A stretch of 64,000 nt of DNA. It comes from Klebsiella pneumoniae. Lineage in GTDB: Bacteria > Myxococcota_A > UBA796 > SXON01. A program made the translations under genes and the position numbers. The notes beneath the pieces were generated by a model, which was not told the DNA's origin, did not search any database, and saw nothing but the letters and a program-made list of their open reading frames with translations. Positions 7,005-20,480 of this stretch are shown here, piece by piece. Position 1 is the first letter of the stretch. Each line of letters starts with the position of its first letter. The stretch lies in the NCBI GenBank assembly GCA_945862325.1, contig CAMAXZ010000009.1, positions 1 to 64,000 on the forward strand, read 5' to 3'.

Positions 7005-8675
7005 TCAGCGCCCCATTCGCCACGTCAAATCGTACAGGCTCGGGTACCACTGCACGCGGTAGAACCCGGCCCCATAGTCCACGCAGTCGAAGGACCACAG
7101 GAGCTCGCCCTCCGGGTACGAAACCTCCCGTAGGAACGGCCCACCCCACCCGTTTCCGGTGCCGTAGCCGCTCGACCACGCCGCGCGCTCCTCGTCCGGC
7201 AGCACCATCGCGCCGCCCATGCCCCACGCGATGAGGTAGTCCGGATCGTACGGGTCGCGGGGGCCGTACTCCCACACGATCTCGCCGAGCATCGTGCCCT
7301 CGTCCAAACGGTACTCGACCATCCGGCTCCAGCTCGGGTCGACCCAGTTGCCTGCGTCGTCCATGCGGTAGTACCCGTTGTCGAACATCGTGAACGTCGT
7401 GCGGTCGCCGTCGAAGGAGCGGAAGCGCGCCTCGTGCTCCCCGAAGAACCACTCTTCCGTCGGGAGGGTGACCGGGCGCTCGGCGTCGATGTCGTCGACG
7501 AGCGTGAAGTCGCCGCCCATCCCGAAGCGCCACACGACGGAGGAGGTTTCGACGTCGATCTTCACGATCCAGCTCTGGGAGCGCATGCTCATCCAGAACA
7601 CCTTCCGGCCATCGTCGTCGATGCGGAAATCCAACGAGTTGCCGTGGCCATAGTCGGAGATGAAGCCGCCGTAGGCCGACCGCCCATAGTCCAGCATCGG
7701 GTCGACCGAGACGCCGTCGTTGACGTCCCCCGCCGTCGTCCAGTCCCACAAGACTTCCCGGTTGTACGGGTCGAACACGACGATGCCCTGCGAGTACACC
7801 CACCCGTAGGTCCACGAGTATTCCCAGGTGCCGGTGATGACGGCGAGCGCGCCGGCCCAGTCGCCTTCGGTGATCTGGATGGTCTCGTGATTGTCGATGT
7901 AGTCGTGCTGCCAGGTGGTCCGCCCACTGAACCAGATGGGAGCAAACTGGGCGATCGCCTCGCTCTTCTCGTCGAACATCACGAGGACCGAGTTCGTGCT
8001 CGACACCCCCGCCCAACCGCCGTCCATCAACGGCACGGGCGAGTACACGAGCTCGCTGGGCATCCCCTCGATGCGGTAGACGACGTCGCCCTGGTGGTCG
8101 ACGCAGAAGTAGTTGTACGTGCCCGTGGACGAATAGTACCCGTCGGTGCAATACACCTCGTCCGGGTCGTGGCGGTCCGCGTAGGTGCTCGCGATGCACC
8201 GTTGGAAGTCCCGGGGGATCGGGGGCGCGTCGACCACGATCGGCTCGCTCTCCCACGGCGCCCCGTCCGGCGCCTCCGCGCGCACCACGAGCGACGTGGC
8301 CAGGCCCGACTTGAGGCCCAACACGAGGATCTCCGTCGGTTCGTCGGCGGTGAGCAGCCGGGGCGGGGTGGTTTGTCCGCGCTCGCCGTACTCCACCCAC
8401 ACCATGGCGTCGTGGTCGACCGTGACCACGACGGCGGCGGCGTTGGGGTTGTACGGGAGGATCGTCGCCACCGCGGTTCCGGACACGACGAAGCTCGGCG
8501 CGGTGTCCTGGGCGGTGTCGTCGGTGTCGGTGTCGTCGGTGTCGTCGGTGTCGTCGGTGTCGTCGGTGTCGTCGGTGTCGTCGGTGTCGGCCGCCGAGTC
8601 GGTGTCGGAGTCGCCGATGTCCACACCGCTCGAGCGGCAGGCGGTGAGGAGGGCGAGGAGGGTCGCGAGTCGCAT
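7005..8675 (-). CDS. Arylsulfotransferase-like surface lipoprotein
   Basis: A 556-residue lipoprotein: the signal peptide ends in LLALLTAC (lipobox LTAC). An Asp/Thr tether of DDT repeats runs from about residue 25 to 55. A Fn3-like region follows, then a beta-propeller region of the arylsulfotransferase (ASST, PF05935-like) family; the hallmark block is DYGHGNSLDFRIDDD followed by RSQSWIVKIDVETSSVVWRFG. ASST enzymes move sulfate between phenolic esters without PAPS, but many family members with such tethers have unknown roles, so sulfotransferase activity is uncertain. The stop lies 5 bases from the convergent pseudoprotease gene. A -10-like TATCGT ends 7 bases before the ATG, suggesting a leaderless transcript. 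Confidence 0.82.
   Translation of the reverse strand: MRLATLLALLTACRSSGVDIGDSDTDSAADTDDTDDTDDTDDTDDTDDTDTDDTAQDTAPSFVVSGTAVATILPYNPNAAAVVVTVDHDAMVWVEYGERGQTTPPRLLTADEPTEILVLGLKSGLATSLVVRAEAPDGAPWESEPIVVDAPPIPRDFQRCIASTYADRHDPDEVYCTDGYYSSTGTYNYFCVDHQGDVVYRIEGMPSELVYSPVPLMDGGWAGVSSTNSVLVMFDEKSEAIAQFAPIWFSGRTTWQHDYIDNHETIQITEGDWAGALAVITGTWEYSWTYGWVYSQGIVVFDPYNREVLWDWTTAGDVNDGVSVDPMLDYGRSAYGGFISDYGHGNSLDFRIDDDGRKVFWMSMRSQSWIVKIDVETSSVVWRFGMGGDFTLVDDIDAERPVTLPTEEWFFGEHEARFRSFDGDRTTFTMFDNGYYRMDDAGNWVDPSWSRMVEYRLDEGTMLGEIVWEYGPRDPYDPDYLIAWGMGGAMVLPDEERAAWSSGYGTGNGWGGPFLREVSYPEGELLWSFDCVDYGAGFYRVQWYPSLYDLTWRMGR
8515..8608 (-). repeat. 9-base tandem repeat encoding DDT units
   Basis: Near-identical copies of GTCGTCGGT (plus strand) encode the (Asp-Asp-Thr)n tether just after the lipobox of the arylsulfotransferase-like lipoprotein. 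The unit is a multiple of three, so slippage would change tether length without breaking the frame. Confidence 0.85.
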
Positions 8676-8770: not shown

Positions 8771-11700
8771 CTACGCTCCGTGCTGCGCGCGGACCTCGGC
8801 GAGCTCCGCGGCGGTCTCGGCGGCGGCGCGCTCGAGCTGGGCGTCCGAGTGCAAGGAGCTGAGGAAGAACCTCAGGCGCGACGCGTCGTCCGCGACCGCC
8901 GGGTACAGGATGGGCTGGACGTTGATGCCCCGCTTCATCAGCCCGTCGCTCAACAGCAGCGCGTGGAAGCTGTTGCCCACGATGACCGGGACCACTCCGC
9001 TCTCTCCGCGGCTGGGCCCCGTGTCGAGCCCGTGGCGCACGCACGCGGCGTAGAACACCTGCGCGTTGTGCTGCAGGGTGGCCACCGCGGACGTGTCCTG
9101 CTCCATCAGCTCCAAGGACGCGATGGCGGCGGCCGTGTTCGCGGGGGTGAGGCCCGCGGAGTACACGAAGCCCGGGGCGGTGTACTTCAAGAGGTCACAG
9201 AGGACCTTGGTTCCGGCGATGTAGCCGCCGCAGCTCGACAGCGACTTCGACAGCGTGCCCATCCAGATGTCGATCTCGCGCGCGTCGCATCCGTAGTGCT
9301 CGGCCACGCCGTAGCCGCGCGCCCCGACGACGCCGAAGCTGTGGGCCTCGTCGACCATCAGGAAGGTCTTGAAGCGGCGCTTGAGCTCGATCAGGCGTGG
9401 GAGATCGCAGAGGTCCCCGTCCATCGAGTAGACGCCTTCGACGAGGATCAGGCACTTCTCGAAGTTGCCGCGCAGCTGGTGCAGCATGCGCTCGAGGGCG
9501 TGGGTGTCGCCATGCGGGAACGGGCGGCGTGTGGCGCCCGAGAGCCGCATGCCCTGGAAGCCCGAGTCGTGGATGTACTCGTCGTGAAGGATGAGGTCCT
9601 TCGGGCCGAACAGATGACCGATGGTCGTCACGTTCGTGGCGTGCCCCGCGGTGAACACCACGGCGTCCTCCACCCCGACGGCTTCGGCGATGCGGCGCTC
9701 GAGCTCGACGTGGATCGGGCGTTCGCCCGAAGCGACGCGGCTCGCGCTGACGCTCGTGCCGTAGGTCTGCACGGCTTCGATCACGCGGCGCTCGACGTGG
9801 GGGTGCCCCGAGTAGCCCAGGTAGTTGTACCCGGAGAAGTGCAGGAGCTCCCGGCCGCCGATCGTGACGGTGTCGCGGGCGACGCCCTCGAGCACCTTGA
9901 AGTACGGGTTGGCGATGCCGAGCAGCGGGAGGGCGTCGAGCCGCTCGCGCAGGTCGAGCCACGCGGGGAACTTCGCAAAATCGAGGTGCTCGGCCGCGAC
10001 CTGCACCTCCGGCTCGCTCGCCGCGTCGGCGCGGAGCTCGGCCTCGATCCCCTCGGCCAGGCCGACCACGCGCCCGTCTTCGGCGAGGAACCAGATCGAG
10101 CCGGTGAAGCGGTCGCCCGTGGAGGCCTCGAAGCGTCCCACGACGCGCAGCTCGGTCGCGCCGTCGAGCGGACGCGAGCGCCAACGCGCGACGCGCACCG
10201 GGAAGCCGCCTCGCGCGAAGCGTACGCGGGCGTAGATCGCCGCCAGCTGGAAGCCGCTGTCGATCGCGAGCGGGCCGAAGCGCCAGGGCTCCTGCTCCCA
10301 CGCGGCCGCGTCGCCGACGCGCACGCGCCCGAGCACGCCGCCTTCGCCCACACCCTCGACCGACAGCACCCCCCGCAGCAGGGGGCCATGGAAGGTGTGC
10401 CGGGCGTAGAACGTCGGGAGATCGAGCTCGCACGCCGCGGTCGGGCCAGTCGGCTCGGGCTCGGGCAGCGGCCGGCTGTCCGCGACGACGCGGCCCCGCC
10501 ACGCGAGTCGGCCGCCCATCGTGGCGGTGAACCGACCGGAGTCGAGTCGAAGGTGCGCCGCGATGGGCTGCTCGACGACGAGGCCGTCGAAGAGGGTGAG
10601 GTCCTCCACGGCCGCTTCGACGCCGATCGCGCGCCCGAGGGCGTCCGCCCACTCCATGACCATCGCCATCGGCACCGTCGGACGCCCGTAGAGGGCGTGG
10701 TCGCGCAGCCAGCCGAAGGAAGGATCGAGCGGTACTTCGACCTCGATCGCACGGGGGTGCTCGGGGAGATCGAGGCCGAGCACGACCTCGCCGGATGCGC
10801 CCAGGGTGTCGAGGAAGGCGCGTACGCCCTGCTCGAGGTCGACGAACCACACCCCGCGCTCGCGCATCTCGCGGCGCGCCGCCGCGGGGATCGTCGCGAC
10901 CATGTCGCTTCCCGCCCACGGGCCCCACACCTGGGTGACGACCTGCACACCGGCGCGCGCGAGGCGTCGACCGAGGGCGGCAAGACCATCGTTCGCGGCG
11001 GCGTATTCCGTCTGGAAGGCGTTTCCGAAGCGGCCGGCCTGACTGCCGATCGACGCGACCCACAGCGGTGCGACGCGTTCGGCGGCGCCGAGCGCCTCGG
11101 CGAGGCGGGCAAGGGCGCCGACCTTGACGTCCCACGCCCCCGCCCCGTCGACCGTGCCCGCCACGCCGTCGGCGAGGGCGCCCGCGGCGTGCACGAGCCC
11201 GTCGACCCGGCCGATCGCGGGGAGGGCGGCCGCGATCGACGCGCCGTCCCGCAGGTCGGCACGAACGTAGCGGGCGGCGGCGCCGATCGCGGCGAGCGCT
11301 TCGGCGGCGTCAGGGCGGGAGCCCAACACGACCACCTCGGCGCCGGCGTCGGCGAGGGCGCGCCCGAGCACGCGCCCGAGCCAGCCCGTGCCGCCGGTGA
11401 GGAGGACCCGCTGCCCGGTGAGGGTGCGCGGCGCGGCCGGCGCGGGCGCGAGCCCCATGACGTACCGGGCGCCGTTTCGCCAGACGACTTCGACGTCGCG
11501 CTCGGCGGCGGCGAGCTCCGCGCGCGCCTCCGCTTCGGTGCCATCGACGAGCACGACCTTGTGGGCCGGCCACTCCCGTGCGAGCGCCTTCACGTACCCG
11601 GAGACCCCGCCGGAGAGCGGATCGTCGGGGAGAACCTCGGAGATGACCGCGAGGTCCGCGCCCGGCGCGAGCGCGCGGGCGGCGCGCCGCAGGTCGTCGA

Positions 11701-14700
11701 GGGTAGGCCGCACGAGCACCGTCGCCTCGCCGCCGGCACGGCCGCGGCCGGACAGCGGCGCGAGCCGAAGCGTCGGCGCCCAGGCGCCGAGGGGGCGCGT
11801 GGGGTCCGTCAGCGCGACCTCGGCTTCGTCGCCGCCCTCGACGTGACGCACGAGGTCGTCGATCGTCGGGTTGGTCGCGAACAGCGAGCGCGGCAGGCCC
11901 GGGAAGCCCGGGAAGTTCTCGCCGAGCCTCGTCGAGAGCTCCTGAAGCATCAGCGAGTCGAAGCCGAGATCCTCGAAGATCTTCTGGTCGGCGCGCAACG
12001 CGTCGGTGGGGAACGCCGAAACCTTCGACACGGCTGCGAGCACGCGGGCGCGGACGTCCTTCGGGTCGGGCGCGGCGTCGGAGGGGCGACCGGCCGGCGC
12101 GGGGTCCGGCGTGGTCGCGCTCGCGGTGGGGTTCGTGCCCAGCGCCGCGACGGACGGGGCCTTGAGGTCGTCTCCGACGCCCCAGTACACCTGGGTGGAG
12201 AGGGGGGTGGGCGGGAGGGTCGCGAGGCCGTCGCCGAACCCCGAAAGGTCGACGGGGTGGCCATTGGCAGCGAGGAACGCCAAGACGCGAAGGAGGCCGT
12301 GCCCGCCGTCGTCCTGTTCGCTCGCGACGCTGAGCACCGCCTCGTCGTCCGCGAGCACGCCCCGCACGAACGCGGCGAGCGTGGCGCCGGCGGAGAGCTG
12401 GACGTAGATCCGGGCGCCCGCGCCGCGGCACATGCCGAGGCCGCGCACGTACTCGACCGGCGACACCGCGTGGCGACGGAAGATCGCGCGCACGTCGTCC
12501 GCCGTCGCGGGCCGCGCGGCGGCGATGCAGCTCGCCATCGGCGTGGAGGGCGCCGCGAACCGAACCTGGGCGAGCCCACGATCGACGTCGTCCTGGACGG
12601 CTTCGAGCACCGGGCTGTGGAACGCGTGAGAGACCGGGATGCGCCGGGCCTTCATGCCCGCCGCGAGCATGCGCTCGACGGAGCGCTCGACGCCCGCGGT
12701 CGCGCCGGAGATGACGTTCTGGCGAGGGTGGTTGCGGTTGGCGATGGTGACGCCGGGCTCGAGGTGCGGCTCGATCTCTTCGGGTGCGGCCATGCACGCC
12801 GCCATCGCGCCGTGATCGCCCGGCAGGTCCGCCATGGCGCGCCCGCGTTCGGCCACGAAGCGCAGGGTGTCGGCGATCGGCGCGCCGCCCGAGAGCGCCG
12901 CCGCGGTGAACTCGCCGAGGCTGTGGCCCAGGATGATCGAGGGAGAGACGCCGTAGTCGGCGAGAACCCGGGCGACCGCGAGACCGATGGCGAACATCGC
13001 CGGCTGCGCCACGGCGGTGTCCGTCAGGGCGTCGTCGGTGGCCTCCGGCGCGTAGAGGTAGTCGCGCAAGGGGCGCGGCAGGATGTCGCGCACCACCTCC
13101 TCGCACTCGGCGAGGGTGGCCGCGAACGCCGGGATGCCGAGCCAATCCCGCAGGAGCCCCACGCGCTGCATGCCCTGACCGGGGCACAGGAAGGCCACCG
13201 GCACCGGGGCCTCGGCGTCGCCCACCACCACGTCGCGCTCGAGCGCGCCGCGCGCGGTAGGGTCGGCGGCGAGCGTCGCCGCGACCTTTCGGAGTCGTGC
13301 GTCGAGCTCGTGAATCGACGCGCACACGATGGCCACGCGCACCGCGCGGCGGCGGCGGGCGAGGTTCAGGGTGTGGGCCACGGCGGCGAGGTCGCCCGCC
13401 TCTGGCAGCGAGGCCGCGACCTCGGCGCAATAGCGGGCGAGCAGCGCGCCGTCGTCGGCGCTCAGCACGACGAGCTGAGCGGGCAGCGCCGCGCGGCGGG
13501 CCGGCACCGGAAACACGCGGGTGACTCGGCTGGTCGGGACGGAAGGAGCTTCCTCGATCACGAGATGGGCGTTCGTGCCGCCGAACCCGAAGCTCGACAC
13601 CGTGCCGCGGCGCGGGGTGACCGAGCGCCACGGCGTCGCCGCCGTCGGGATCGTGAAGGTGCCGTCGTCGAGCTCGTGGTCGGGGTGCGGGGCCGTCCAG
13701 TTGGCGAGCGGGAGGATGGTCTTGTGGTGCACCGCGAGCACCATCTTGATGAGCCCCGCCACGCCGGCGGCGGACATCGTGTGGCCGATGTTCGCCTTGA
13801 CCGAGCCGAGGGGGATCGGCGCGCGCGGAGCGCCGAGCGTGCGCCGCAGCGCCGTCAGCTCCGTGCGATCGCCCACGGTGGTGCCGGTGCCGTGCGCCTC
13901 GACGTACCCGATCGAGTCGCCGTGGATGCCGGCGTCGTCCCACGCCGCGCGGATGACCTCGGTCTGGCCCTCGGCGCGGGGGCTCATCGGGCCGTCGCCG
14001 CGCCCGTCGTTGTTCATGGCGGTGCCACGAATGACGGCGTAAATCCTATCGTTGTCCCGAACGGCATCTTCGAGCCGCTTCAGCACGACCATGCCGGCGC
14101 CCTCGCCCTGGACGAAGCCGTCGGCGTCGAGATCGAAGGGGCGACACACGCCGCGGGCGCTGATGGCGCCGATGCGCGAGAACGCGATGAGGTTCTCGGG
14201 CGTGAGGTTCAGGTAGGCGCCGCCCGCGAGGGCGACGTCGATCTGGCCGTCACGGAGGAACGTGACCGCGTCGTGGACCGCGACGAGCGCGGACGCGCAC
14301 GCGGCGTCGACCGTGTACGCGGGGCCGCCGAGATCGAGCTCCTGCGCCACGACCGCCGCGCTCATGTTCGCCAGCACCCCGGGCGCCGTGAACGCGCGCG
14401 CGGACACCACCCGACCGACAGAGGCGGCGATGATCGCCGCCTCTTCGTCGTTCGCGGGGGCTCGGCCGAGCGTGCCCGCCATCATCATCTGCGCCGCGAT
14501 GCGGGTGCTGAGCAGGCTCTTGTACTCGGTGGCCGTCAGGCCGACCCAGGTGCCGACCCGGCGGCGATCCATCGGCCGCGCGCCTTCTTTGTCTTCGAGC
14601 GACGCGGCGTATCCGGCGTCCTGCATCGCGAACCACGAGCACTCCAACAGCATGCGCTGCTGGGGGTCCATGACCTCCACCCGGCGCGGCGGAATGCCGA

Positions 14701-14941
14701 ACTCGAGCGCCGCGAAGCGCCGGATGTCCGACACGAACGCGCCGTGCGGCGAGTAGTAGCGATCGTTCGCCCGCTGCTGTGCGCTGAAGAAGGCCGCGTG
14801 GTTCCAGCGGTCGGCGGGCGGCGTGCTGAACGCGTGCCGGCCATCTCGGAGGAGCCGCCAGTAGGCGGTGATGTCGTCGGCACCCGGAAATCGACATGCG
14901 AGGCCGACGACCGCGATCGTGCCCCCGGAAGTACGCGCCAT
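8771..14941 (-). CDS. Single-module polyketide synthase fused to an alpha-oxoamine synthase (KS-AT-ACP-KR-DH-AOS)
   Basis: A 2056-residue megasynthase. The ketosynthase (1-440) has C215, H350 (HGTGTT) and H387 (NIGHT). The acyltransferase (about 560-860) has GHSLGE with S674 and HAFH, the malonyl-type motif. The ACP has GFDSLM with S996. The ketoreductase has TGGTGWLG and Y1313. A dehydratase-like hotdog pair has H1415 in HALYGRPTVP and D1561 in DSGFQ. From about 1655 to the end it is a PLP-dependent alpha-oxoamine synthase (AONS/KBL/serine palmitoyltransferase family) with K1899 in TLSKS. There is no thioesterase or enoylreductase. The AOS would release the chain by decarboxylative condensation with an amino acid. 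Start has GGAG 8 bases upstream. It is the last gene of the FAAL-ACP-PKS operon. Confidence 0.95.
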   Translation of the reverse strand: MARTSGGTIAVVGLACRFPGADDITAYWRLLRDGRHAFSTPPADRWNHAAFFSAQQRANDRYYSPHGAFVSDIRRFAALEFGIPPRRVEVMDPQQRMLLECSWFAMQDAGYAASLEDKEGARPMDRRRVGTWVGLTATEYKSLLSTRIAAQMMMAGTLGRAPANDEEAAIIAASVGRVVSARAFTAPGVLANMSAAVVAQELDLGGPAYTVDAACASALVAVHDAVTFLRDGQIDVALAGGAYLNLTPENLIAFSRIGAISARGVCRPFDLDADGFVQGEGAGMVVLKRLEDAVRDNDRIYAVIRGTAMNNDGRGDGPMSPRAEGQTEVIRAAWDDAGIHGDSIGYVEAHGTGTTVGDRTELTALRRTLGAPRAPIPLGSVKANIGHTMSAAGVAGLIKMVLAVHHKTILPLANWTAPHPDHELDDGTFTIPTAATPWRSVTPRRGTVSSFGFGGTNAHLVIEEAPSVPTSRVTRVFPVPARRAALPAQLVVLSADDGALLARYCAEVAASLPEAGDLAAVAHTLNLARRRRAVRVAIVCASIHELDARLRKVAATLAADPTARGALERDVVVGDAEAPVPVAFLCPGQGMQRVGLLRDWLGIPAFAATLAECEEVVRDILPRPLRDYLYAPEATDDALTDTAVAQPAMFAIGLAVARVLADYGVSPSIILGHSLGEFTAAALSGGAPIADTLRFVAERGRAMADLPGDHGAMAACMAAPEEIEPHLEPGVTIANRNHPRQNVISGATAGVERSVERMLAAGMKARRIPVSHAFHSPVLEAVQDDVDRGLAQVRFAAPSTPMASCIAAARPATADDVRAIFRRHAVSPVEYVRGLGMCRGAGARIYVQLSAGATLAAFVRGVLADDEAVLSVASEQDDGGHGLLRVLAFLAANGHPVDLSGFGDGLATLPPTPLSTQVYWGVGDDLKAPSVAALGTNPTASATTPDPAPAGRPSDAAPDPKDVRARVLAAVSKVSAFPTDALRADQKIFEDLGFDSLMLQELSTRLGENFPGFPGLPRSLFATNPTIDDLVRHVEGGDEAEVALTDPTRPLGAWAPTLRLAPLSGRGRAGGEATVLVRPTLDDLRRAARALAPGADLAVISEVLPDDPLSGGVSGYVKALAREWPAHKVVLVDGTEAEARAELAAAERDVEVVWRNGARYVMGLAPAPAAPRTLTGQRVLLTGGTGWLGRVLGRALADAGAEVVVLGSRPDAAEALAAIGAAARYVRADLRDGASIAAALPAIGRVDGLVHAAGALADGVAGTVDGAGAWDVKVGALARLAEALGAAERVAPLWVASIGSQAGRFGNAFQTEYAAANDGLAALGRRLARAGVQVVTQVWGPWAGSDMVATIPAAARREMRERGVWFVDLEQGVRAFLDTLGASGEVVLGLDLPEHPRAIEVEVPLDPSFGWLRDHALYGRPTVPMAMVMEWADALGRAIGVEAAVEDLTLFDGLVVEQPIAAHLRLDSGRFTATMGGRLAWRGRVVADSRPLPEPEPTGPTAACELDLPTFYARHTFHGPLLRGVLSVEGVGEGGVLGRVRVGDAAAWEQEPWRFGPLAIDSGFQLAAIYARVRFARGGFPVRVARWRSRPLDGATELRVVGRFEASTGDRFTGSIWFLAEDGRVVGLAEGIEAELRADAASEPEVQVAAEHLDFAKFPAWLDLRERLDALPLLGIANPYFKVLEGVARDTVTIGGRELLHFSGYNYLGYSGHPHVERRVIEAVQTYGTSVSASRVASGERPIHVELERRIAEAVGVEDAVVFTAGHATNVTTIGHLFGPKDLILHDEYIHDSGFQGMRLSGATRRPFPHGDTHALERMLHQLRGNFEKCLILVEGVYSMDGDLCDLPRLIELKRRFKTFLMVDEAHSFGVVGARGYGVAEHYGCDAREIDIWMGTLSKSLSSCGGYIAGTKVLCDLLKYTAPGFVYSAGLTPANTAAAIASLELMEQDTSAVATLQHNAQVFYAACVRHGLDTGPSRGESGVVPVIVGNSFHALLLSDGLMKRGINVQPILYPAVADDASRLRFFLSSLHSDAQLERAAAETAAELAEVRAQHGA

Positions 14942-14981
14942 TCAGTAGTCTCCGCGGGCTTGGCTTCTCGCCCGTCGCGCG

Positions 14982-15236
14982 TCAAGCGGCGCGCGACTTC
15001 TCGATCAGGGACACGAGGTCGCCGAACGTGGTGATTCGGATCATGACCTCGTCGGGGAACTGGGTCTCGAGCTTGTCCTCGAGGTACGCCACCATCTCCA
15101 TCGTCGCGACGGAGTCGAGACCCAGCTCGCGGATCTCCGTCTCCGGCTTGACCGCCAACACCTTGTTGGCCTTGCTGGTGTCGACGGCGGTGACCGCGGC
15201 GCGGATGAGGTCCATGGCGTCCATGTAGAGGTCCAT
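14982..15236 (-). CDS. Stand-alone acyl carrier protein
   Basis: An 84-residue acyl carrier protein; the phosphopantetheine site is in ELGLDSVATMEMVAY. It lies 20 bases after the FAAL gene and 40 bases before the PKS, so it is the natural acceptor of the acyl-adenylate and the donor to the ketosynthase. The start is unclear: the first ATG (15234-15236) directly abuts an AAGGA, while the in-frame ATG four codons later sits 12 bases from it. Either gives a complete four-helix carrier protein. Confidence 0.92.
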   Translation of the reverse strand: MDLYMDAMDLIRAAVTAVDTSKANKVLAVKPETEIRELGLDSVATMEMVAYLEDKLETQFPDEVMIRITTFGDLVSLIEKSRAA

Positions 15237-15256
15237 TCCTTCGGGTAGAGGGGCGT

Positions 15257-17053
15257 TCAGCGACCGAGCATTTTGCTCGCCGCGTGCGTAGCACGGCCGA
15301 GCAGTGAGCGCGCGACATGGCGGGCAACGGTGAGCGTCTCGCCGCCGGAGCCGAGGGTGCGATCTCCCTCGGAGCCGAGGTTGCCCGCGAGGTACTGGTC
15401 ACGCGTCTTGCGACGCTGGAGTTTCCCGCTGCTGGTCTTGGGGAGCTGCCCGGCCTGGAGCACGACCACGTCGGCCACCTTCAGCGACAGTTGATCGGCG
15501 ACCGCGGCGCGGACCGCGTCCGCGACGTTCGCGGGGGCGTCCGGCTTGACCTCCACCACGACCACGAGCTCCTCGCTGTCCTTTCCGGGGCGAGAGAACG
15601 CGACGACGTTGCCCTTCCGCACGCCCTCGACGTCCGCCGCGGCCCACTCGATGGTCTGCGGGTGGTGGTTGCGACCGTTGAGGATGATGAGGTCCTTGCA
15701 GCGGCCGGTGATGAAGATCTGCCCGTCGAGCAGGAAGCCGAGGTCGCCCGTGCGGAGCCAGCCGTCAGCGCCGTAGCTCGCCTGCGTCGCCTCTTCGTTC
15801 TGCCAGTACCCGGCGGTGAGCGACGGCCCGCGGAAGCAGACCTCGCCCTGGTTGCCTTCGGGCAGCTCGTTGCCGTCGGCGTCGATGATGCGGAAGCCGT
15901 GCCCGGAGAACGCCTTGCCGCAGCCGACGAAGGCGAGGGCGAGGGCGTCCGGCTCGGGGTTCTTCACGAGGCCCTCGGCGCGAAACGCCTCGGCGTCCAC
16001 GAGGGCCACCGGGAGCTCTCCCTCCTGGCTCGCGAAGCTCATCGCGAGCGTCGCCTCGGCCATGCCGTACGCGGGCATGACCGCGTTGCCGGGCATGCCG
16101 CAGCGCTCGAACGTCTCGACGAACTCGAGCATCACCTGGGCGTTGATCGGCTCCGCGCCGCACCCGACGCACCGCATGCGGGAGAGGTCCCACGCGGCGA
16201 GCTCCTTTTCGGTCGCGCGCTTGGCGGCGAGGGCGAACGCGAAATTCGGCCCGAAGCTGACGGTGCCCTTGAAGTCGTGCATCGTCTGCATCCAGACGTT
16301 CGGTCGCTTCACGAACGACAGCGTCGGGATGAACACCGCGTCGACCCCGCGGATCATCGGCGTGATGACGAAGCCGATGAGCCCCATGTCGTGGTAGAGC
16401 GGCAGCCACGAGATCGCGCAATCCTGGCCGTGAACGAGGTTCATGCCCTCGGTGGCGATGGCCCAGCAGTTGGCGACGAGCGACCCGTGGGTGACCATGA
16501 CGCCCTTGGGCGCCGAGGTCGAACCGCTCGTGAACTGGAGGAACGCGAGGTCCTCCCAAGTCAACGACGGGAGCGCACCGTCGAACCGCTTGCCGGACTG
16601 GAGCTGGTCGACCGTGACGAGGTCGCGCAGGGTCTTGACGCGCGGCACGACCTGCCAGAGGACGTTGCTCAGCGCCCGGTCGGTGATGATCAGCTTCGCG
16701 CCTGCCACCTGGAGGATGTTGACCGCGGAGTCGGCGTAGGCGTCGAGCCGGCCGAAGGACAGGGGCGGGAACATCGGCACGGGCACGAGGCCGGCCACCA
16801 GGCATCCGTAGAAGGTGACCACGAAGTCTTCGGGGAGCGACAACACCATCGCCACGCGGTCGCCCGACTCGAGGCCGTGCGCGAGGATGGCGCGGGCGCG
16901 ATCCTGGGCGGCGGACCAGACTTGCTTCCACCCGAGCGTGGTCGGCTTGCCGGCGTTGTCCAGGAAGGTGAGGCCGCCCGTGGACAGCTCGGCGTTTCGC
17001 CGGAGGGCGTCGACGACCGTGAGCGGGGCCACGTCGAGTTCGGGGGGTTGCAT
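15257..17053 (-). CDS. Fatty acyl-AMP ligase (FAAL)
   Basis: A 598-residue acyl-adenylating enzyme. The P-loop FTSGSTSAPKGVMVTHG is at about 174-190; the C-terminal region has DGWLRTGDLGFL, ITGRCKDLIILNGRNHHP and a catalytic Lys region (KTSSGKLQRRKT). The stretch FIPTLSFVKRPNVW followed by SFGPNFAFA is typical of FAALs, which hand acyl-AMP to a carrier protein rather than to CoA. Here that carrier should be the ACP encoded next. The ATG at 17053 has GAGG six bases upstream; the frame stays open further upstream but without a good start. Substrate is probably a medium or long fatty acid; chain length cannot be read from sequence. Confidence 0.94.
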   Translation of the reverse strand: MQPPELDVAPLTVVDALRRNAELSTGGLTFLDNAGKPTTLGWKQVWSAAQDRARAILAHGLESGDRVAMVLSLPEDFVVTFYGCLVAGLVPVPMFPPLSFGRLDAYADSAVNILQVAGAKLIITDRALSNVLWQVVPRVKTLRDLVTVDQLQSGKRFDGALPSLTWEDLAFLQFTSGSTSAPKGVMVTHGSLVANCWAIATEGMNLVHGQDCAISWLPLYHDMGLIGFVITPMIRGVDAVFIPTLSFVKRPNVWMQTMHDFKGTVSFGPNFAFALAAKRATEKELAAWDLSRMRCVGCGAEPINAQVMLEFVETFERCGMPGNAVMPAYGMAEATLAMSFASQEGELPVALVDAEAFRAEGLVKNPEPDALALAFVGCGKAFSGHGFRIIDADGNELPEGNQGEVCFRGPSLTAGYWQNEEATQASYGADGWLRTGDLGFLLDGQIFITGRCKDLIILNGRNHHPQTIEWAAADVEGVRKGNVVAFSRPGKDSEELVVVVEVKPDAPANVADAVRAAVADQLSLKVADVVVLQAGQLPKTSSGKLQRRKTRDQYLAGNLGSEGDRTLGSGGETLTVARHVARSLLGRATHAASKMLGR

Positions 17054-17234: not shown

Positions 17235-17648
17235 ATGCACGACCTCTGGCCCGGCCTGCCCGTCACCGTCCAGTCGACCCACATCGACATGTTCGGCCAC
17301 GTCAACCACACGCGGTACCTGGAGTATTTCGAGTGGGCCCGGTTCGCGTGGGCCGAGTACCACGGCTTCCCCATCCCGCGCATGGTGGCGGAAGAGCACG
17401 TCGGCCCTGCCATCCTCCGTGCCCAACTCCAGTTCCGTCGCGAGTGTCGCATGGGTGACCGCCTGCTCGTGACGGCGCGCGCCGTGAGCGCCCGTCGCGG
17501 CATCGGACGGGTGTATCAGACGATTCAGCTCGAACACGGCGGCGAGCTCGCCTGCGAGGGTGAGCTCACCTTCGTGGCGATGGACCTCCGGGCGCGGCGC
17601 GCGGTGGCCTTGCCTCCGCAGTTCGTCGCGTTGGTGGCCCGGGCCTGA
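17235..17648 (+). CDS. Hotdog acyl-CoA/acyl-ACP thioesterase (4HBT/YbgC type)
   Basis: A 137-residue single hotdog domain. The signature STHIDMFGHVNHTRYLEYFE has the catalytic Asp and the GHVN-xx-YL pattern of 4-hydroxybenzoyl-CoA thioesterases and YbgC. It hydrolyses acyl thioesters to free acids. Divergent from the FAAL operon, it could recycle stalled chains or supply free fatty acid to the FAAL; this link is inferred only from position. Its stop is 3 bases from that of the convergent TesB-like gene. Confidence 0.88.
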   Translation: MHDLWPGLPVTVQSTHIDMFGHVNHTRYLEYFEWARFAWAEYHGFPIPRMVAEEHVGPAILRAQLQFRRECRMGDRLLVTARAVSARRGIGRVYQTIQLEHGGELACEGELTFVAMDLRARRAVALPPQFVALVARA

Positions 17649-17651
17649 CCG

Positions 17652-18527
17652 CTACCCCGGGGTGTGGCCCCGCCGGTCGCGCATCAGTCCTTCCTGCACC
17701 ACGGTCGCCACCCGTTCGCCGCGCTGATCGTAGAAGGCACCCCGGACGAGGCCGCGTGCGCCGCCCGCGAACGGGCTGTGTACGTCGTACAACAGCCACT
17801 CGTCCATCCGGAACGGACGGTGGAACCACATCGCATGGTCGAGGCTGGTCACTTGCATTCCGGGCGTCGCCCAGCTCACGCCGTGCGGGAACATGGCGGT
17901 GATCAAGAAGTTGAAGTCGGACGCATACGCCAGCAGGTAACGGTGCACCGCGGGGTCGTCGGGGAGCGAGCCGGTCGCGCGGTACCAGCTGCGCCGGTGT
18001 GGCGGAGCGGGGCGTGGCGCCAGCAAGTTGTATGGTTCGACCGGTCGAATCTCGATTGGTCGCGGCGCGAGCGCGATGGCGCGGAACACGGGCGGGATGG
18101 CGTCTCCTGCGCGGCGGGCGAGCTCCAACTCCGAGAGCAGGCCTTCTGGGGCGGGGACGTCCGGCATCGGGTCCGCGTGCTCCAGGCCCGGCTCGTCCAC
18201 CTGGAAGGACGCGGACATGACGAAGATCGGCTGCCCGCCCTGCACGGCGACCACCCGCCGAGTCGCGAAGCTCGCGCCGTCGCGGACGGGGTCGACCGTG
18301 TACACGACGGGCCGCGCCGCGTCGCCCTGACGCAGGAAGTACGAGTGCAGGGAGTGCACGGCGCGGTCCGGCGGGACGGTCTGGGCCGCGGCCGACAGCG
18401 CCTGGCCGAGCACCTGCCCGCCGAAGATCGCGCCCCAACCGAGGTCCTGACTCTGCCCACGGAACACGAGCGACTCGATTCGTTCCAGCCGGAGGAGGAC
18501 GAGGAGCTCGTCGAGGACGTCGCGCAT
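17652..18527 (-). CDS. tesB: Acyl-CoA thioesterase II (TesB family)
   Basis: A 291-residue double-hotdog thioesterase, close to the usual 286 residues of TesB. It has VFRGQSQDLGWGAIFGGQVLG near the N-terminus, the ASDFNFL Asp, the SLDHAMWFHRPF block and the C-terminal VQEGLMR Gln, matching the Asp/Thr/Gln catalytic set of the family. It hydrolyses a broad range of acyl-CoA esters in the cytoplasm. It is divergent from the M2 peptidase gene (57-base spacer) and convergent with the hotdog thioesterase. Confidence 0.93.
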   Translation of the reverse strand: MRDVLDELLVLLRLERIESLVFRGQSQDLGWGAIFGGQVLGQALSAAAQTVPPDRAVHSLHSYFLRQGDAARPVVYTVDPVRDGASFATRRVVAVQGGQPIFVMSASFQVDEPGLEHADPMPDVPAPEGLLSELELARRAGDAIPPVFRAIALAPRPIEIRPVEPYNLLAPRPAPPHRRSWYRATGSLPDDPAVHRYLLAYASDFNFLITAMFPHGVSWATPGMQVTSLDHAMWFHRPFRMDEWLLYDVHSPFAGGARGLVRGAFYDQRGERVATVVQEGLMRDRRGHTPG

Positions 18528-18584
18528 GGGGCGGCCCGCTAACCGGCCTCGGCGACGGTCGGCGCGTCGCCATCGGCCCGCGCT

Positions 18585-20480
18585 ATGTTGACCGCGCTTT
18601 CGGGGTCCTCGTTGCTGCTCGCCGCTCTCGCCTCCTTCGCGCTCGCCGCGCCTCCCGCCGCTCCGCCGCCGCCCCCGCCCTCGGGGCCCCGCGTGGCGCC
18701 GATGGTGCCGCCCGGCGCGCCGATCCTGCCGGTGCCGCCGATGCTCCAGATTCGCGAGGAAGCGAGGAAGTTCCTCGAGGTCTACAACTCCCTCTATGTG
18801 TCGCTGTCCACGGTGTCCGCCGAAGCGGCCTGGGCGTCGAGCACCGACGTGCGGCCGGAGCACGAGGGACGGCGCGTGGCCGCGGATGAGGCGTTCGCCG
18901 CCTTCATCGGCGATCCCGCGGTCATCGAGCAGGCGCGCGGCTTCCTCGGCAAGAAGGACGCCCTCGACCCCTTGCAGGTGCGGCAGCTCGAGCGCCTCGT
19001 CATGCTCGCCAGCTTCGCGCCAGGGAACGCGCGCGACATCGTGCGGGCGCGCATCGCCGCGGAGGCCCGCGCGGCGGCCGTCCAGGACGCGTTCGTGTAC
19101 TGCTTCACGCCGCGGGCGGCGGACGGGTCGTGCCCCGCGCCGAAGACCGCGAACGACATCGATCAGACCCTCGCCAACAGCACCGACCTCGAGGAGCGCC
19201 GCCGGGTGTGGGAGGCCAGCAAGGAGATCGGGCGCCCCCTGAAGGCCAACCTCGTCGAGCTGCGCCGGCTGCGCAACGAGATCGCGCGCGCAAACGGCTG
19301 GTCGTCCTACTTCGGCCTCATGACCGCCGAGTACGGGCTCACCGCCGACGAGATGATCGCCATCCTCGACGCGGTGTCCAACGACGTCATGCCCCTGTAC
19401 GGCGACGTGTCGACGTGGGCCACGAAGCAGCTCGCGAAGCGCTACCGCCAGCCGGCGCCGCGGTCCGGCGTGCCGGCGCATTGGTACCCGAACCGCTGGG
19501 CGCAGGAGTGGGGCGGTCTCGTGCCGGCGTTGGACCTCGACCCGTACTTCAAGGACCGCAGCCCCGAGTGGATCGTGAAGACCGCGGAGGACTTCTACGT
19601 GGGCATCGGGTTCGCGCCGATGCCCGAGAGCTTCTGGACGAAGTCCGACCTCTACCCGGTGCCCGCCGGCACGGCGCGCCAGAAGAACTCCCATGCGTCG
19701 GCGTGGCACGTCGACCTCCGAAACGATCTGCGCTCGCTGATGAGCGTCGAGCCGAACGCCGAGTGGTTCTTCACGTCCCACCACGAGTTCGGCCACATCG
19801 TCTACTACCAGTCGTACACGCGGCCGGAGGTGCCGCCCATCCTGCGCGAGGGCGCCAATCGTGCGTTTCACGAGGGGGTGGGCGAGCTCATCTCCCTCGC
19901 CGCCGGGCAGACCCCGTACCTGCGCAAGCGCGGCATCCTTCCGGCCGACCTGAAGATCGATCCCAACCAGGCCCTCCTCGAGGACGCCCTCACCCGCACC
20001 GTCGCGTTCCTCCCGTGGAGCGCCGGTGTGATGACCCACTTCGAGTACGAGCTCTACGAGAAGGAGCTGCCGCCGGAGCAGTGGCAGAAGCGCTGGTGGG
20101 AGCTCGTGGCGAAGTACCAGGGCGTGGTGCCGCCGGACGCGGCGCGCCTGACCGACCCCGACCTCTGCGACGCCTGCACGAAGACCCACATCATCGACGA
20201 TCCGGCGGGGTACTACGACTACGCGCTCGCGACGGTCATCAAGTTCCAGCTCCACGAGCACATCGCGCGCGACATCCTGAAGCAGGACCCGCACGCCTGC
20301 GACTACTCGGGCAACAAGGCCGTCGGCGACTACCTGAAGACGATCCTCGAGAAGGGCTCGACGGAAGACTGGCGCTCGGTGCTCCGCGAAGCCACGGGCG
20401 AAGACCTCAGCACGCGGGCCATGCTCGAGTACTACGCGCCCCTGCGGAAGTGGTTGGCGAAGGAGAACAAGAAGAAGTGA
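18585..20480 (+). CDS. M2-family metallopeptidase (angiotensin-converting-enzyme-like)
   Basis: A 631-residue exported dipeptidyl carboxypeptidase-like protein. The N-terminus is a signal peptide (GSSLLLAALASFALA) followed by a Pro-rich linker. The zinc site is H400-E-F-G-H404 and the third ligand E430 in FHEGVGELISL, the spacing of ACE. The helical M2 fold is further suggested by EWIVKTAEDFYVGIGF and KNSHASAWHVDL. It would cleave dipeptides from the C-termini of peptides outside the cytoplasm. The next gene, a spondin_N lipoprotein, starts on its stop codon (TGATG). Confidence 0.92.
   Translation: MLTALSGSSLLLAALASFALAAPPAAPPPPPPSGPRVAPMVPPGAPILPVPPMLQIREEARKFLEVYNSLYVSLSTVSAEAAWASSTDVRPEHEGRRVAADEAFAAFIGDPAVIEQARGFLGKKDALDPLQVRQLERLVMLASFAPGNARDIVRARIAAEARAAAVQDAFVYCFTPRAADGSCPAPKTANDIDQTLANSTDLEERRRVWEASKEIGRPLKANLVELRRLRNEIARANGWSSYFGLMTAEYGLTADEMIAILDAVSNDVMPLYGDVSTWATKQLAKRYRQPAPRSGVPAHWYPNRWAQEWGGLVPALDLDPYFKDRSPEWIVKTAEDFYVGIGFAPMPESFWTKSDLYPVPAGTARQKNSHASAWHVDLRNDLRSLMSVEPNAEWFFTSHHEFGHIVYYQSYTRPEVPPILREGANRAFHEGVGELISLAAGQTPYLRKRGILPADLKIDPNQALLEDALTRTVAFLPWSAGVMTHFEYELYEKELPPEQWQKRWWELVAKYQGVVPPDAARLTDPDLCDACTKTHIIDDPAGYYDYALATVIKFQLHEHIARDILKQDPHACDYSGNKAVGDYLKTILEKGSTEDWRSVLREATGEDLSTRAMLEYYAPLRKWLAKENKKK

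Follow-up and report, generated by a model that had tools for sequence, protein, structure and literature searches.

Sphingolipids are best known from animal cell membranes, in which the double bond of sphingosine is made by a desaturase. Whether a bacterium can build a base of this type, double bond included, on a polyketide synthase (PKS) is the question raised by a three-gene operon in the 64,000-nucleotide stretch of DNA analysed here (the window; contig CAMAXZ010000009.1 of GenBank assembly GCA_945862325.1, positions 1 to 64,000). The assembly, 4.9 Mb in size and about 90% complete, has metagenome-assembled Myxococcota as near named relatives. The three open frames, all on the minus strand and separated by intergenic gaps of 20 and 40 bp, encode a fatty acyl-AMP ligase (FAAL) of 598 amino acids (15257-17053), a stand-alone acyl carrier protein (ACP) of 84 amino acids (14982-15236) and a PKS fused to an alpha-oxoamine synthase (AOS), hereafter PKS-AOS, of 2056 amino acids (8771-14941), in full agreement with the coordinates, order and strand given by the initial annotation, which a model had made from the sequence alone. 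With modest confidence, we favour the reading that this operon makes a sphingolipid long-chain base of the 3-keto-4-ene (sphingosine) type, by way of FAAL, ACP, PKS and AOS and with serine as the amino acid. A chance or spurious reading frame was rejected on the basis of full-length homologues with conserved active sites throughout the family.

The anatomy of PKS-AOS was analysed by Pfam, motif scanning and comparison with its full-length homologues, and the domain order claimed before, including the HAFH motif, K1899 and the lack of enoylreductase (ER) and thioesterase (TE) domains, was borne out. Following the protein from its N-terminus, we identified (coordinates on the minus strand) a ketosynthase (KS; 13541-14941, residues about 1-467, Pfam match 9-414 to PF00109/PF02801) with C215, H350 and H387; a malonyl-type acyltransferase (AT; 12350-13192, residues 584-864; PF00698, 135 bits) with GHSLG and HAFH; an internal ACP (11840-12046, residues 966-1034; PF00550) with DSL and S996; a ketoreductase (KR; 10913-11407, residues 1179-1343; PF08659, 66 bits) with S1300 and Y1313; a dehydratase (DH; 10043-10789, residues about 1385-1633) with H1415 in an intact HxxxGxxxxP and with D1561; and a pyridoxal phosphate-dependent AOS (8771-9991, residues 1651-2056; PF00155, 141 bits at 1699-2041) with K1899 (TLSK), H1791 and DEAHS. 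The catalytic motifs of all six domains are conserved in 21 homologues, HAFH of the AT being HGFH in some. Neither ER nor TE was detected by Pfam in the 2056-residue protein, and no conserved ER gene adjoins the operon at the loci examined.

Two of these domains, DH and AOS, were examined further by structural modelling. The Pfam matches of the DH are weak (PKS_DH_N at 1406-1467, 25.7 bits against a cut-off of 27; PS-DH at 1501-1633, 43.5 bits), and a degenerate DH was suspected from this score, but the modelled structure and the conservation of residues led us to reject it: an AlphaFold2 model built from the 21 homologues (pLDDT 88) has PKS dehydratases as its best PDB matches, and the catalytic histidine, the proline of HxxxGxxxxP and the catalytic aspartate are invariant in the 21 homologues. 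For the AOS, the comparison with serine palmitoyltransferase (SPT) and 8-amino-7-oxononanoate synthase came out in favour of SPT. The top PDB matches of the model (pLDDT 91) are the SPT entries 8guh and 3a2b, with the Sphingobacterium SPT as the best, and the domain carries the PAV loop of the SPT type, while KBL, ThAOS and BioF have PVV or PTV; its score against the BioF family, 331 bits, stays below the cut-off of 426, and it also stands apart from BioF in the AOS tree.

The closest published system of known chemistry is that of Pseudomonas fluorescens MYb115, in which the iterative PKS SgaA and the AOS SgaB make saturated C24-C28 sphinganines, PfSgaB being an SPT with an almost exclusive preference for L-serine over alanine and glycine (PMC12134224, 2025). 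The SgaAB orthologue of P. putida (L101) and that of P. paraversuta (L131) were recognised by PKS ends that match the published primers (TKRRQV after TTG; PNRLI plus one residue). The AOS of the window is 54% identical to the SgaB orthologue of P. putida, and in the AOS tree, a quick tree with long outgroup branches, the window AOS groups with the SgaB type (SH-aLRT 100), while canonical SPT, KBL and BioF fall outside this clade. In PfSgaAB(C) a type I PKS feeds an AOS of this clade to make sphingoid bases, as is predicted for the window, but the PKSs differ: the SgaA type is a fully reducing enzyme of about 2530 amino acids with ER (KS-AT-DH-ER-KR-ACP in P. putida) and with the AOS as a separate gene, whereas the window protein is KS-AT-ACP-KR-DH without ER, carries the AOS fused at its C-terminus and is accompanied by FAAL and ACP. 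The identity between the window KS and the Sga-type PKSs is about 32-38%. As a separate observation, the P. putida orthologues (L101, 11605-19080) lie beside capsule polysaccharide genes (PF05159), a PhyH-like oxygenase gene and a sulfatase-family gene; this neighbourhood suggests a possible role of sphingoid bases from PKSs as lipid anchors of the capsule.

The loading end of the operon was assigned by Pfam, PDB match, comparison with AasR and synteny. The FAAL matches PF00501 (219 bits), contains the FAAL/DIP2 C-terminal domain PF23024 and has the E. coli fatty acyl-adenylate ligase 3pbk as its best PDB match (5e-100), its score against NF006624 (fatty acyl-AMP ligase), 503 bits, being below the cut-off of 600. 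Its predicted role is to activate a free fatty acid by adenylation and to transfer it to the stand-alone ACP, which carries the phosphopantetheine site LGLDSV (PF00550, 40.9 bits). In Caulobacter and E. coli BL21, the FAAL-like acyl-ACP synthetase AasR loads the dedicated carrier AcpR, and the SPT uses that acyl-ACP (PMC9386255). Over 551 amino acids, the window FAAL shares 35% identity with AasR as encoded in the sphingolipid operon of E. coli BL21, the ACP is weakly similar to AcpR of that strain (1e-6), and the AOS is 33% identical to the E. coli SPT. In both systems a dedicated FAAL-type synthetase and a dedicated ACP feed an AOS; in contrast to the window, the SPT of the AasR/AcpR system is unfused, belongs to another clade and takes acyl-ACP directly, with no polyketide extension and hence no double bond introduced.

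Full-length fused homologues of PKS-AOS share 62-67% identity across the window's family and 46-51% in its sister family. In a survey of 71 genomes of the class, the SgaB-type AOS was found as a single copy in 21 of 22 genomes of the window's family and in 20 of 21 genomes of the sister family, both of one Myxococcota order, the two misses being genomes of 76-77% completeness. A third family carries an AOS of this type in 4 of 10 genomes, and none was found in three other families of the order or in other orders of the class, except for one genome with a stand-alone AOS (37% identity); the occurrence in more distant families of the phylum is sporadic. When other neighbourhoods of this kind were searched for, the trio proved syntenic across 21 loci: the FAAL gene adjoins the PKS gene in 21 of 21, and the small ACP frame between them was recognised in at least 18. 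Because it is single-copy, syntenic and near-universal in two families, the gene set looks more like core metabolism than a mobile secondary-metabolite cluster.

On this basis the following route is proposed. The FAAL would convert a free fatty acid to acyl-AMP and pass the acyl group to the stand-alone ACP; the KS would take over the chain and condense it once with a malonyl unit that the AT has placed on the internal ACP; KR and DH would then reduce and dehydrate the beta-keto group to a trans-2-enoyl thioester, which the protein would reduce no further; and the fused AOS would join the chain to L-serine in a decarboxylative condensation and thereby release a 2-amino-1-hydroxy-4-en-3-one of the 3-ketosphingosine type. 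We infer a single extension round and, because the DH is intact and the ER missing, retention of the 4,5 double bond. Compared with what a canonical SPT makes from the same fatty acid, the base should have an acyl side longer by two carbons, so that palmitate would give a C20 base and myristate the C18 sphingosine skeleton. Finally, a separate N-acyltransferase of the aca/YghO type and a reductase would convert the base to a ceramide-type lipid, probably for the membrane.

In order to trace this last step, we searched for homologues of yghO/aca, the N-acyltransferase gene for dihydroceramide, and of epi, a reductase gene (PMC9386255). The window's genome contains an aca homologue on another contig (C26:1473-2582; 34%, 3e-64), beside a Dus gene. 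A strong aca match (E < 1e-40) was found in 31 of 40 operon-bearing relatives and in 3 of 18 others (Fisher p 2e-5, not corrected for relatedness); these three are a genome with a stand-alone AOS, another with PKS fragments and, from the sister family, an incomplete one. In two metagenome-assembled genomes (MAGs) of Archangiaceae type (L122, L141) the aca homologue is divergent from and adjacent to the FAAL gene, and in a Myxococcota MAG (L079) an epi-like gene adjoins PKS-AOS, while two further relatives of the class carry aca beside a canonical-like SPT gene. As aca co-occurs with the operon and in places adjoins it, an N-acylated sphingoid base is pointed to as the end product. Apart from the fused AOS, the window's genome (about 90% complete) shows only KBL- and BioF-like AOS enzymes, and a canonical SPT was not found in it.

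Several points weigh against the favoured reading. The nearest relatives with established chemistry produce saturated bases; how often the chain is extended is not readable from sequence, and the product is a predicted one; aca lies outside the operon in the window, and a strong aca match is missing from 9 of the operon-bearing relatives; a canonical SPT could have been missed in a genome only about 90% complete; and no 3-keto reductase was identified, a single CerR query giving a partial, weak match (7e-12) in the window's genome. As an alternative, the same route may lead to a saturated or longer base, either through a trans-acting ER or through iterative action of the PKS with reduction from outside, giving a sphinganine as in PfSgaAB. 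The PfSgaA orthologue has DH, ER and KR, its published counterpart yields saturated C24-C28 sphinganines, and those canonical bacterial pathways that the cited work describes proceed via 3-oxo-sphinganine (PMC9386255). We nevertheless consider a saturated base unlikely, given that the protein has no ER, that no conserved ER gene adjoins the operon, and that a FAAL/ACP loader would fit a single extension of a ready-made chain better than building from malonate. A shift of the double bond by one position along the acyl chain, as expected if the DH were a dehydratase-isomerase, is highly improbable. The closest fold of the DH model is indeed GphF DH1, a dehydratase that also isomerises, with 6mbh, a variant of it lacking isomerase activity, as the top entry. 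Ordinary dehydratases, however, rank close behind, and the HxxxGxxxxP proline and the catalytic aspartate, both features of ordinary PKS dehydratases, are kept in 21 of 21 homologues.

The choice of amino acid offers another alternative. Several AOS enzymes use glycine or alanine, and residues alone do not fix the amino acid, so that use of alanine, glycine or another amino acid by the window AOS would give a 1-deoxy sphingoid or an amino-enone lipid. This outcome is distinctly unlikely: L-serine is favoured over both, as judged by comparison with characterised enzymes, because of the membership in the SgaB clade, the 54% identity with this serine-preferring type, the PAV loop shared with SPTs, which are also the best fold matches, and the link with aca. 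There remains the question of whether the product is a membrane lipid at all, since the published relative PfSgaAB was described as a secondary-metabolite cluster (PMC12134224) and the AOS is distantly related to CqsA. To a secondary metabolite or signal, such as a CAI-1- or prodigiosin-like amino ketone, we assign only a slight chance, because single-copy, strictly syntenic and near-universal occurrence in two families is unlike that of a patchy cluster, and a ceramide synthase homologue is associated with the operon.

The favoured route to a 3-keto-4-ene base joins elements that are in part published. The initial annotation had proposed the same anatomy and the same logic of loading, extension, reduction, dehydration and release, and both stood; it had placed serine beside glycine and alanine, among which the AOS clade and the 54% identity now favour serine. 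It was unaware, however, that the general path from PKS through AOS to sphingolipid (PMC12134224) and the loading by FAAL, ACP and SPT (PMC9386255) are published. The fungal fumonisin and sphingofungin systems, mentioned in PMC12134224, likewise have an AOS that releases a polyketide as a sphingoid-like product, but with a highly reducing PKS (HR-PKS) and different products; they are likened here by description, not by sequence. A literature query combining FAAL, AOS, PKS and sphingolipid returned no report within the collection searched, and a review of FAAL natural products mentions neither sphingolipids nor AOS. What sets the operon apart is the FAAL/ACP loader, the absence of ER, the single fused polypeptide and its near-universality in two families, with no canonical SPT detected in the window's genome.

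Tentatively, and somewhat less firmly than for the product itself, we propose that FAAL-ACP-PKS-AOS has replaced canonical SPT as the entry to sphingolipids in whole Myxococcota families, the 4,5-unsaturated base being built directly by PKS dehydration before release. If so, this would be a third bacterial entry to sphingolipids, combining the acyl-ACP-fed SPT and the PKS-fed AOS; it would explain how members of this order could make sphingolipids without the SPT gene, the marker used by surveys for sphingolipid production; and it would mean that sphingosine-type bases could arise without a desaturase.

Among bacterial and archaeal genomes, at least 593 relatives were detected by scanning, of which the best 80 were read. 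Within the AOS clade, the Myxococcota set of FAAL, ACP and KS-AT-ACP-KR-DH-AOS forms a single group (support 91). Other assemblies in the clade are FAAL-ACP-AOS proteins in Planctomycetota, HR-PKS plus AOS in Pseudomonadota and others, a few HR-PKS-AOS fusions, and KS-AT-ACP-AOS proteins in Streptomyces. Because the assemblies differ within one clade, AOS enzymes of the SgaB clade have, by sequence comparison, been paired repeatedly with different acyl-carrier suppliers, the window version having one non-fully-reducing PKS module placed between loader and AOS. The clade offers a natural series for the uptake of AOS substrates from different carrier-protein systems.

The planctomycete (Pirellulales) proteins are single FAAL-ACP-AOS polypeptides of about 1150 amino acids (L076 6757-10230, L086, L091, L102 and others). 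They have the AOS clade and the logic of FAAL and ACP in common with the window but contain no PKS module; they are predicted to be one-polypeptide, acyl-ACP-fed amino ketone (sphingoid base) synthases, and no description of them was met in the surveyed sphingolipid literature. Planctomycetes also carry PKS-AOS fusions of about 2600 amino acids (L105 2494-10197, L118 2245-10200, L140 2461-10233), which are a fused form of the SgaA/SgaB pair, that of L140 being fully reducing with ER. The Streptomyces KS-AT-ACP-AOS proteins (L064 12001-16839, WP_331753165.1, 1612 amino acids, on plasmid NZ_CP109229.1 of S. anthocyanicus; L106 4189-10215 in S. amritsarensis) are PKS-AOS fusions with KS, AT and AOS related to those of the window, but without KR and DH; their predicted action is to transfer a beta-keto chain to an amino acid. 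No FAAL or ACP gene is annotated near the S. anthocyanicus plasmid copy; an MMPL transporter gene lies divergent beside it.

As to the neighbouring genes in the window, a divergent hot-dog thioesterase (4HBT_2; 17235-17648, plus strand; PF13279, 67 bits) adjoins the operon in the 11 loci read from the window's family, and is a possible supplier of free fatty acid to the FAAL. Conservation with the operon was not seen for the TesB-like thioesterase at 17652-18572, nor for the gene directly after PKS-AOS (7005-8675, minus strand), predicted to encode a lipoprotein in which a D/T-rich linker (DTDDTDD) is combined with an arylsulfotransferase (ASST) domain. Beyond the divergent thioesterases follows a gene for a 631-residue M2 peptidase of the angiotensin-converting-enzyme family (18585-20480, plus strand; PF01401, 319 bits). 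In the sister family, downstream genes are conserved, but were rejected as pathway enzymes on their identities: the most conserved of them is without a Pfam match and, inspected by eye, resembles a repeat (beta-propeller-like) lipoprotein, and the others encode metallo-beta-lactamase, HHH, DUF3006 and regulator proteins. In one relative (G094 C9:82231-83502, L045) the PKS-AOS frame contains one in-frame TGA within the AOS match, either a sequencing error or a sign of a pseudogene. A gene resembling cyclopropane fatty acid synthase (PF02353) accompanies the FAAL-ACP-PKS-AOS operon of Archangiaceae and of another Myxococcota family, either inside it or immediately behind it (L113 10216-11232, L141 10196-11131, L048 13344-14375), which suggests that the base or its acyl chain is methylated or cyclopropanated.

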